NCBI GenBank assembly: GCA_020442665.1
Contig: JAGRJP010000034.1
Location: 1-32,194 of the forward strand
Source: Lysobacterales bacterium
Lineage (GTDB): Bacteria > Pseudomonadota > Gammaproteobacteria > Xanthomonadales > Marinicellaceae
Direction: 5' to 3'
DNA length: 32,194 nucleotides
Both the position numbers and the translations under genes were made by a program. Below are positions 7,911 to 9,984 of the stretch, in pieces. Numbering within the stretch: position 1 is the first letter of the stretch; each line of letters begins with the position of its first letter. The notes under the pieces were generated by a model, which made no database searches, was not told where the DNA came from, and was given only the letters and a program-made list of their open reading frames with translations.

Positions 7911-8468
7911 TTACAATCCTTGTGATTGATTTTGTAATTCCTCTGCATAACGATGCAACCAACTGATTTGTTCAATGGTTTCAGGCATTTTTAACCCACG
8001 AGCTTGACTGAGCTCAATCAAAGCCATATCTACCTGATAACCCATCTTTATCAACATGGAAGCAGCAACAATACCGGTTCGGCCAATACCAGCGAAACAA
8101 TGAATCGCAATATTTTTACCGGATTTGAAATCATAAACCAGATTCTCAATCAATTGATTAAACGGAACAAAAAATTGAGGTGTGCTGTGATCTTTGATTG
8201 AAAAATTAACAAACTCAATACCATGACGCTCACATTCGCTTCCTTCCTCAACCAGAGAAAAGGAGTTCATCTCCTCAAAACTCAAAAGCGAAACCACAAC
8301 ATCAACTTTTTTCTTTGACAGATATTCTGCAAAAAATGGAAACTGACTGCCACTTGGAGGTTTGGGCATCATATACAACGAACTATTATTTATCTGATAT
8401 TCAAACAGTTGCTGGTCCCACTGTTTATGTAAAAAAACCATATCCGTGTTGGTTGTAGAATTCGTCAT
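7911..8468 (-). CDS. Dual-specificity/tyrosine protein phosphatase
   Basis: A 185-residue cytoplasmic protein with the cysteine-based phosphatase signature HCFAGIGRTG (HCxxGxxR[ST]), about residues 123-132. The fold order fits the DSP/PTP family: an N-terminal strand region with SLLSFEEM, a substrate loop with a possible general-acid Asp in FSIKDHSTP, then the P-loop and a C-terminal helix ending ISWLHRYAEEL. It should remove phosphate from Tyr or Ser/Thr residues; the target is unknown. No kinase is nearby. It is first in an operon with an envelope lipoprotein and a cyclophilin, and is divergent from the ECF sigma gene. Confidence 0.88.
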   Translation of the reverse strand: MTNSTTNTDMVFLHKQWDQQLFEYQINNSSLYMMPKPPSGSQFPFFAEYLSKKKVDVVVSLLSFEEMNSFSLVEEGSECERHGIEFVNFSIKDHSTPQFFVPFNQLIENLVYDFKSGKNIAIHCFAGIGRTGIVAASMLIKMGYQVDMALIELSQARGLKMPETIEQISWLHRYAEELQNQSQGL

Positions 8469-8486: not shown

Positions 8487-8514
8487 TGTAACAAAGCGTT
8501 ATATTATACGTTAT
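8487..8514 (+). promoter_or_regulatory. Candidate ECF-type promoter of the sigma factor operon
   Basis: TGTAAC at 8487-8492 and CGTTAT at 8509-8514 are separated by 16 bases. Several ECF sigma factors recognise an AAC-containing -35 and a CGT-containing -10 at this spacing. Initiation would fall near 8521, 25 bases before the sigma ATG. The match suggests autoregulation but rests on a single site. Confidence 0.4.
8503..8508 (-). promoter_or_regulatory. Candidate -10 element of the phosphatase operon
   Basis: On the minus strand this is a perfect TATAAT, placed about 35 bases before the phosphatase ATG at 8468. The -35 region is poor. It lies inside the spacer of the candidate ECF promoter on the opposite strand, so the two promoters would overlap. 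Confidence 0.4.
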
Positions 8515-8545
8515 TAGTGAAAAACAATAGGAAAATAGCTGATAG

Positions 8546-9037
8546 ATGAGCATTTGGTTCAGGCTGCAGGTTAATAAAAATCAAAATAAACTTTATGCGA
8601 TATGCTACCAGATGCTACAAGACAGCCTGGAGGCAGAAGAAGTCGTGCAAGATTGTTTTATCAAACTGTGGCAGGCAAAAGAGAATGGTACCAAACAACC
8701 AAAAGCCTGGTTGTTTCAGGTTGCCAGAAATCAATGTCTGGATATTTTGAGAAAGCGAAAACACGAACTCAATTATCAGCAAAATAACTTTTTAAGTGAT
8801 AATGTGGCGAAATCAGCTTGTGAAGAACTGCTTAATATTGAATTATCTGAGCATATTTCAGGGGCGATTGATGAACTAAATGAGCCTTATAAGTCACTTT
8901 TAGTTTTAAGAGAAGTTGGTGATTTAAGTTATCAACAATTAGCCGATGTAATGGATTTGAATGTATCACAAATAAAAGTATACTTGCATAGAGCCAGAAA
9001 TACTTTAAAACAAAAGTTGGCTCAAATAGCCGCTTAA
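8546..9037 (+). CDS. ECF-family RNA polymerase sigma factor
   Basis: A 163-residue sigma factor with only regions 2 and 4. Region 2 runs from LYAICYQMLQDSLEAEEVVQDCFIKLW through the -10-binding segment KAWLFQVARNQCLDILRKRK. Region 4 is LNEPYKSLLVLREVGDLSYQQLADVMDLNVSQIKVYLHRARNTLKQ-like, with the helix-turn-helix at the end. An in-frame TAG directly precedes the ATG at 8546, so this is the earliest possible start; AGGA lies 13 bases upstream. It is followed after 16 bases by a small membrane protein and then a DUF4252 protein, an arrangement known for ECF operons. It probably controls its own operon through the candidate promoter at 8487. Confidence 0.93.
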   Translation: MSIWFRLQVNKNQNKLYAICYQMLQDSLEAEEVVQDCFIKLWQAKENGTKQPKAWLFQVARNQCLDILRKRKHELNYQQNNFLSDNVAKSACEELLNIELSEHISGAIDELNEPYKSLLVLREVGDLSYQQLADVMDLNVSQIKVYLHRARNTLKQKLAQIAA

Positions 9038-9053
9038 ATTGAGAGCAATAGTA

Positions 9054-9419
9054 ATGAGAGACAATTGTAAGGATAAAGAATTAGAGAAATATTTTAAAAA
9101 GGCCGGCGAGCTAAAATGTCCGCCTAGCATGAAAAATAGTCTTTATAAGAAACTGGAACTATCCAAATCCGGATTTTGGTCATTACCAAGATTTGCAATC
9201 GCGGGAATATCATTGGCATTTGTTGCATCATTCACAATGTTAATAAGCCAACACAACATTCATCAGCGTGAGTTGCAAATTGAACAAGCTCATGAAGATT
9301 TACAAATTGCAATGCATTACATCAACAGAGTTTCTCTAAAATCATTATCTGCCGTGAATAATAATGGAATAAAGCCGGCAATAATCAAACCCATTTCAAA
9401 GGCTGGAGTATTACTGTAG
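9054..9419 (+). CDS. Small membrane protein, probable anti-sigma factor
   Basis: A 121-residue protein with one transmembrane helix (about residues 45-62, FAIAGISLAFVASFTMLI). The N-terminal cytoplasmic part is short and charged (CKDKELEKYFKKAGELKCPPSMKNSLYKKLEL), and the C-terminal part faces the periplasm. No known anti-sigma motif is clear; the call rests on its position just after an ECF sigma gene and on its topology. A TTG at 9039 would extend the frame by five codons, but the ATG at 9054 is preceded by GAGAG at a good distance (9041-9045). Two cysteines in the N-terminal part could sense metal or redox state, which is speculation. Confidence 0.6.
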   Translation: MRDNCKDKELEKYFKKAGELKCPPSMKNSLYKKLELSKSGFWSLPRFAIAGISLAFVASFTMLISQHNIHQRELQIEQAHEDLQIAMHYINRVSLKSLSAVNNNGIKPAIIKPISKAGVLL

Positions 9420-9432
9420 GAGAAAAAAGGCT

Positions 9433-9984
9433 ATGAAAATTATGAATAAAACATATAGATACATTTTGAGCTTTGTGTTGATGGCTTCACTCACGAGTGT
9501 TAACGCAGAATCAACCAGTGAAAAATTCTCACAATTAGTTGGTGCTCAACCGAGTGTACAAATTAATCTGAGTTCAACAATGTTGAGACTGTTGTCTTCC
9601 GCAACTCAGGAAGAAGAAGATATCTCATCATTGTTATCTGCATTGAAATCAATCAAAGTCACTGTTTTTGAAATTAAAGAGAAAGGAAATATTGAATCAA
9701 TTCGCAGTGAAATTAATAGCTTATCTGAGCAAAAGTCAGCCATTGGTTATCAAAAATTGGCGACAGTTGCTGAAGATGATTCTTTAGTTCAAATTCTTGC
9801 TCAAGTCGATGATGAAGGACTTAACAGCTTATCAATTTTTGCACTGGACGATGATGATGAGTTGGTGTTGATTGATATTGAAGGAAGTATTAAAATCTCT
9901 GAAATCGGCAATCTAATGAACCATTTCAATGTTGATTTAGATTTAAATGGCCAGAAAATTATAAAACAATCTGAAAAAGACTAA
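9433..9984 (+). CDS. Exported DUF4252-domain protein
   Basis: A 183-residue protein with a signal peptide (MKIMNKTYRYILSFVLMASL..., cleavage probably after VNA). The body fits the DUF4252 pattern: a helical SSLLSALKSIKVTVFEIKEKG region, a GYQKLATVAEDDSLVQILAQ strand segment, and a C-terminal DDDDELVLIDIEGSIKISEIGNL block. The function of DUF4252 proteins is unknown; they often accompany ECF sigma operons in Bacteroidetes and some Gammaproteobacteria. The ATG at 9433 has AGGAG (9418-9422) ten bases upstream, overlapping the stop of the preceding gene. A second ATG three codons on is a less likely start. Confidence 0.8.
   Translation: MKIMNKTYRYILSFVLMASLTSVNAESTSEKFSQLVGAQPSVQINLSSTMLRLLSSATQEEEDISSLLSALKSIKVTVFEIKEKGNIESIRSEINSLSEQKSAIGYQKLATVAEDDSLVQILAQVDDEGLNSLSIFALDDDDELVLIDIEGSIKISEIGNLMNHFNVDLDLNGQKIIKQSEKD

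Follow-up and report, generated by a model that had tools for sequence, protein, structure and literature searches.

Three genes read in the same direction, encoding an ECF sigma factor, a single-pass membrane protein and an exported DUF4252 protein, lie behind a two-part promoter element in the window, i.e. the whole stretch of 32,194 nucleotides that was analysed, which is contig C287 of a genome of 2.86 Mb in 360 contigs (Table 1). An operon with these products had been put forward in the original prediction, and domain matches for the sigma factor and for DUF4252 bear this out. The sigma factor contains region 2 at residues 9–72 and region 4 at residues 106–154 of 163, both scoring above cut-off, and consists of these two regions only, joined by a short linker, as is characteristic of ECF sigma factors. 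Its best NCBIfam model was NF058625 (GFO_1088 family) with 115.7 bits, below the cut-off of 130. The product of the third gene matched PF14060 with 61.7 bits against a gathering cut-off of 23.9. According to an alignment with relatives, the membrane protein most likely starts at ATG 9054 and not at TTG 9039. Downstream of the operon follow the gene for ribosomal protein L31 and a citrate synthase gene (the latter identified by eye), with matches in 22 and 18 of 22 family loci, respectively. A scan of the genome_contigs set returned ten loci, each with weak Bacteroidota sigma matches.

Table 1 Features of the operon and its upstream region. Positions refer to the window.
Feature	Position	Strand	Remarks
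-35 element TGTAAC	8487..8492	+	from the sequence; GTAAC at this place in 21/21 family loci, TGTAAC in 20
-10 element CGTTAT	8509..8514	+	spacer exactly 16
Probable ribosome-binding stretch TAGGAAAA	8528..8535	+	upstream regions compared by eye; alike across the genus
ECF sigma factor, 163 aa	8546..9037	+	Sigma70_r2 1.5e-17, Sigma70_r4_2 6.1e-12
Single-pass membrane protein, 121 aa	9054..9419	+	probable anti-sigma factor, sigma-binding part reduced
Exported DUF4252 protein, 183 aa	9433..9984	+	PF14060 1e-16; signal peptide by eye

The element TGTAAC-N16-CGTTAT (8487–8514, plus strand) ends, as had been claimed, 31 bases (8515–8545) before the ATG of the sigma gene at 8546. With spacers of 14–18 bases allowed, the window contains a single exact copy of the motif, and none of 100 shuffled versions contains one; with up to three mismatches there are 23 matches, which is the number expected by chance. 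The exact N16 pattern has two copies in the whole genome. The second, on contig C234, was rejected as a promoter as it is coding and lies inside a 616-codon open frame. An inner CGTTAT at 8497 was likewise rejected as an alternative -10 box, since relatives do not keep it. A gene for a dual-specificity-phosphatase-like protein (7911–8468, minus strand) diverges from the sigma operon. Its start and the -35 box are 18 bases apart, which would give the two genes a common control region.

Conservation of the promoter element in related genomes

Operons of relatives were collected by a DUF4252 search, and the DNA before the sigma start was then read, with GTAAC-N16-CGT within 150 bases upstream of the sigma start as the uniform count. 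All 21 family loci, the own locus among them, had this pattern, 20 of them with the full TGTAAC, and spacers of 12–15 or 17–20 bases were found in 0 of the 21. An AAC -35 box and a CGT -10 box ahead of the own operon, as expected for an ECF sigma factor, are thus a constant feature of the family loci.

The order-level set comprised 35 loci. Thirty were the best-scoring ones of one search, mostly from family f8, with three that hold the second DUF4252 gene of the own family; the other five came from the DUF4252 search. After removal of five loci without a sigma match and two that were cut at the sigma start, 28 were usable, of which 27 were distinct. The motif preceded the sigma gene in 25 of these 27, in one case (L024) at a distance of about 126 bases from the assigned sigma start. 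The two misses were an N17 version (L088) and a copy further upstream (L075). Control upstream regions analysed with the same script contained the motif in 0 of 82 cases (rpmE2 0/21, citrate synthase gene 0/18, the two downstream operon genes 0/21 and 0/22). Among 369 sampled genomes of the class, five including our own contained DUF4252, and in two of the five, which belong to one genus, an operon of this type is likewise preceded by the motif (L235, L236). Conservation upstream of the sigma gene rules out a chance match and supports the predicted self-recognition promoter; absence of the motif from orthologous operons, which had been named as a refuting outcome, was not what we observed.

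The distance from CGT to the sigma ATG in the order-level set has a median of 13 bases. In f8 loci such as L070, L072 and L083 the -10 box is so close to this ATG that the mRNA would be almost leaderless.

Boxes with AAC and CGT, an anti-sigma gene in the same transcript and positive autoregulation are described as early hallmarks of ECF sigma factors (PMC8103513). Similar -35 boxes are reported for Bacillus subtilis SigX (-35 TGTAAC, -10 CGWC; PMC12153292) and for group 16 ECF promoters (tGTAACc-N16-CGAA; PMC3420878). The element described here shares the TGTAAC -35 box with both, but differs in its -10 box, which is CGT(T/C).

Genes that share the element and their co-inheritance with the operon

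A search of genomes for the bipartite motif showed that it recurs before a few unlinked genes, whose products are exported proteins. Across whole genomes the pattern is not enriched in itself (12 genomes gave 91 sites, against 222 for reversed-pattern controls), so enrichment offers no evidence and single sites mean little. We therefore examined recurrence before orthologous genes, and groups were kept as candidate regulon members only where the site recurs there. Of the 91 sites, 19 belonged to the operon or to a second DUF4252 gene, 60 were fetched, two were read as loci and ten were left out. A regulon made up of every site was rejected, as 33 of the 60 fetched sites fall within coding frames that are 100 codons or longer.

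The second DUF4252 gene, which is not linked to the operon, had the motif ahead of it in all 22 usable loci (own genome C11:5756–5783, minus strand). This count covers 22 of 23 loci, and the remaining locus shows the site too. Directly behind the -10 box of this gene, loci of genus g3 (L025, L045, L049–L058) have a conserved 5' leader, AAATCCATGGCGGAT, which might form a small hairpin or act in control. In a search of 16 genomes, nine had a single exact copy, located before the second DUF4252 gene, and there were no exact copies elsewhere. In several relatives the gene for the membrane protein has a similar stretch, AAATCCATGGC, at its end, ahead of the first DUF4252 gene. In a comparison of L229:3741–7211 with L023 in 60-base steps, the promoter and the divergent gene were mostly 88–100% identical and the coding region of the second DUF4252 about 63–83%. 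This contrast is a mosaic, produced by recombination or by assembly.

The role of DUF4252 itself can be read in two ways. It may be an effector only, for instance a periplasmic carrier or chaperone, or a signalling partner similar to RseB or AabB, and we see an even chance for the effector-only role. The second gene looks like an output of the system, and the structure model (mean pLDDT 86.9) weakly resembles DcrB, PsbP-like proteins and Eag chaperones (best Foldseek E 7.3e-3, for DcrB; VIA Z 8.5, rmsd 3.8 over 93 residues). These matches are too weak for a function to be drawn from them, and a search of solved structures gave no credible match for DUF4252. A signalling role is favoured by the DUF4252 copy that directly follows the membrane-protein gene in the 22 family loci read. 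It is also favoured by the analogous SigAb-AabA-AabB operon of Acinetobacter baumannii, in which AabA and the exported product of the third gene, AabB, are each reported to lower SigAb activity (PMC12153292). Available portions of earlier work list DUF4252 proteins as co-regulated with sigma factors and give no function (PMC10101095, PMC11410844). Our DUF4252 alignment (A3) comprised 90 of the 99 proteins found. Most operons of family f8 have a pair of DUF4252 genes, and the N-terminus of the second product looks, by eye, like that of a lipoprotein. In four order-level loci (L024, L026, L027, L028) the DUF4252 genes are followed by a gene for a small exported protein that, by eye, looks like DUF192.

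Two groups of repeat proteins complete the candidate regulon. Group B, with DTVNGSI units, has the motif in 20 of 21 distinct loci (missing in L169; own genome C17:8184–8211, minus strand); of 23 loci one weak match (L181) was dropped, which left 22, 21 of them distinct. Group A, with DDGSGS repeats, has it in 16 of 24 loci, in one case (L187) 118 bases upstream; these 24 remained of 30 fetched loci after L206–L211 were dropped as weak matches or second pieces. A group A gene was not found in the own genome. For each group two proteins were tested, and they gave weak matches far below cut-off, group B to LiaX (NF038025; 4.2e-8 and 3.4e-6, 32.3 and 26.0 bits, cut-off 350) and group A to LiaG (NF049997, Toastrack/DUF4097; about 1e-10, 40.5 and 41.1 bits, cut-off 285). 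Further sites lie before genes for CPBP, DUF5694, DUF885, HlyD-type and (by eye) M16-like proteins, which may or may not belong to the regulon. The CPBP-type protease was considered as a fourth group and set aside, because a site in three of the four genomes with the gene is too few to claim.

Around group B, a T-run of a terminator-like hairpin runs into the -35 box in L159–L168, and the preceding gene in L223 and L224 looks like rpoH, both by eye. Another sigma gene, some 2.6 kb away from the group B gene of the own genome, was considered as its regulator and set aside, as by eye no sigma-like neighbour of this kind is present in L221 and L222, two of four other group B neighbourhoods compared (the other two being L223 and L224).

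The distribution of these genes follows that of the operon. DUF4252 is absent from 8 of 33 family genomes, and the same eight lack the membrane protein, which is present in 22 of the 33, and a close sigma factor (16 genomes tested, four with at least 60% identity). Group B is absent from seven of these eight, the other (G017) giving a weak match. The fit is not perfect. In three genomes that are incomplete or fragmentary (G002, G004, G026) the second DUF4252 gene is present, but the operon is absent from the assembly. No group B match was obtained in G026, G028 and G029, though the latter two have the membrane protein. Four operon-less genomes (G019, G022, G024, G031) keep the group A gene, and the motif is absent in 4/4; of the other 20 group A loci (G002 and G026 included) 16 have the motif and four keep TGTAAC, but not CGT. 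In the protein tree the four operon-less members form one clade, which points to one loss rather than four.

This pattern bears on the question whether the encoded sigma factor acts at the element at all. The conserved element could be the promoter of another ECF sigma factor or the operator of a transcription factor, with the encoded sigma acting elsewhere. The genome contains 18 sigma region-4 matches, 16 of them over cut-off, and at a further sigma locus (L214) the bare core AAC-N16-CGT, in the form GTCAAC, is present at 64 bases upstream. With eight of the 18 inspected, promoter sharing is thus possible, and AAC/CGT boxes are reported to be common to many ECF sigma factors (PMC8103513). 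However, only the operon described here, among the best 8 of the 18 sigma loci, has TAAC-N15–18-CGT within 200 bases upstream. The sites also track the operon, with group B missing or weak in the eight DUF4252-less genomes and group A without a site where the operon is gone, and the fixed N16 spacing would be more in keeping with a sigma factor than with a two-part operator. We thus regard control by another regulator as improbable and recognition of the element by the encoded sigma factor as the better reading.

A membrane protein related to anti-sigma-like proteins

Pfam and NCBIfam searches with the membrane protein of the window gave no match, a class I (zf-HC2-like) domain included. The earlier statement that it has no known anti-sigma domain therefore holds for library searches. 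As a reading of the protein it is misleading, since longer, anti-sigma-like proteins are its homologues. These occupy the same operon place in other families of the order (147–201 aa, alignment A2), and their N-terminal part resembles anti-sigma domains. Among four of them, zf-HC2 was matched once with 22.4 bits (cut-off 22.2), twice below threshold and once not at all, and one of two proteins compared with NCBI anti-sigma models matched them at 4.7e-5 and 1.6e-4, both short of the cut-off. Comparison of the family alignment (A1) with A2 by hhalign resulted in 96.2% and an E of 2.2e-9 over 105 columns, and placed CPPSMKNSLY on APASLRxRL. Proteins of intermediate length occur in L090, L093 and L096, where most of the same N-terminal region is lost. 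The proteins of L235 and L236 also look shorter, by eye, before the matching segment.

Residues that are invariant in 21 aligned sequences include Y13, F14, C22, P23, M26, L30 and W42 before the membrane helix and A86, M87, H88, Y89, K96, L98, N102, G105, P108, I111 and P113 after it. Of the two N-terminal cysteines that had been singled out, the second (KCPPSMK) is invariant and the first is not. Helices are predicted at residues 3–19, 24–38 and 54–104 in a low-confidence model (mean pLDDT 58.7). Solved structures provided no credible match to the protein or to its longer relatives.

Owing to its homology to longer anti-sigma-like proteins in the same operon place, the membrane protein is best read as a putative anti-sigma factor with a sigma-binding domain pared down to two helices, and the structure model, of low confidence as it is, agrees with this. 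It might instead be a positive co-factor or a bystander, with the sigma factor controlled otherwise, in line with the lack of a match to anti-sigma models and the low-confidence fold; the profile homology, the zf-HC2 and anti-sigma matches of longer relatives and the intermediate forms all speak against this, and we judge it to be unlikely.

Proposed control circuit and known systems

Taken from sequence comparison, the three genes probably form a positively autoregulated ECF sigma/anti-sigma operon that runs a small envelope-stress response. In unstressed cells, the membrane protein would bind the sigma factor and hold it at the membrane via two short cytoplasmic helices, the second of which carries CPPSMKxxLY (C, P, M and L invariant). 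Both helices would be the remnant of a longer anti-sigma domain that is still present in sister families. A stimulus at the envelope would alter the periplasmic tail, with its invariant AMHY and further K, L, N, G and P residues, and the sigma factor would be freed. It would then bind TGTAAC-N16-CGTTAT and raise expression of its own operon as well as of the second DUF4252 gene, the LiaX-like protein and, in many relatives, the LiaG-like protein. With anti-sigma factor and DUF4252 raised together, the brake would be restored, and DUF4252 may feed back on the anti-sigma tail or protect the envelope.

An autoregulated ECF operon is ordinary in kind, and this operon type is already known from Bacteroidota. 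In Porphyromonas gingivalis, PG_0214–PG_0218 and PG_0985–PG_0987 encode an ECF sigma factor, a hypothetical protein and DUF4252; they are reported to be raised together in a transcriptome, and PG_0215 is called a putative anti-sigma factor (PMC10101095). For Prevotella bivia a comparable set of genes is given (PMC11410844). The gene order sigma / hypothetical / DUF4252 is the same as in the P. gingivalis operons and in GFO_1088/GFO_1090/GFO_1091, whereas P. gingivalis belongs to the Bacteroidota and the proteins of the window score below the NCBIfam cut-offs, with 28.4 bits against a curated 150 for the GFO_1090 family (NF058626).

The closest experimental parallel, as an analogue in design, is SigAb-AabA-AabB of A. 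baumannii. It likewise combines a cytoplasmic ECF sigma factor with AabA, a small single-pass anti-sigma factor of 107 aa for which a CnrY-like model was given, and with a third protein that is exported, and is described as autoregulated with a small direct regulon (PMC12153292). It differs in its promoter boxes and in AabB, which was modelled as alpha-helical, and the term 'DUF' is absent from the available text of that paper. CnrY, a class II anti-sigma factor, has a short domain with two cytoplasmic helices that wrap the sigma factor (PMC7406223). No sequence link to CnrY was found, and the short form described here is tied to longer zf-HC2-like proteins, so that the likeness may be convergent. 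Bacillus Lia is reported to be under the control of a two-component system (PMC11237479), whereas the sites found here suggest an ECF sigma factor instead.

New here are the conserved promoter, the small candidate Lia-like regulon and the putative reduced anti-sigma factor. Together they allow the tentative idea of a Lia-like envelope defence in a Gram-negative lineage that is run by an ECF sigma factor instead of a two-component system, which would turn on DUF4252 and the LiaG- and LiaX-like proteins, with a brake that is losing its sigma-binding domain and with DUF4252 as the periplasmic setter of this brake. With so sharply defined a promoter, asking what the sigma factor does comes down to testing a small number of genes, and the anti-sigma-like proteins, shortened to different degrees, give an indication of how a domain for sigma binding can be trimmed.
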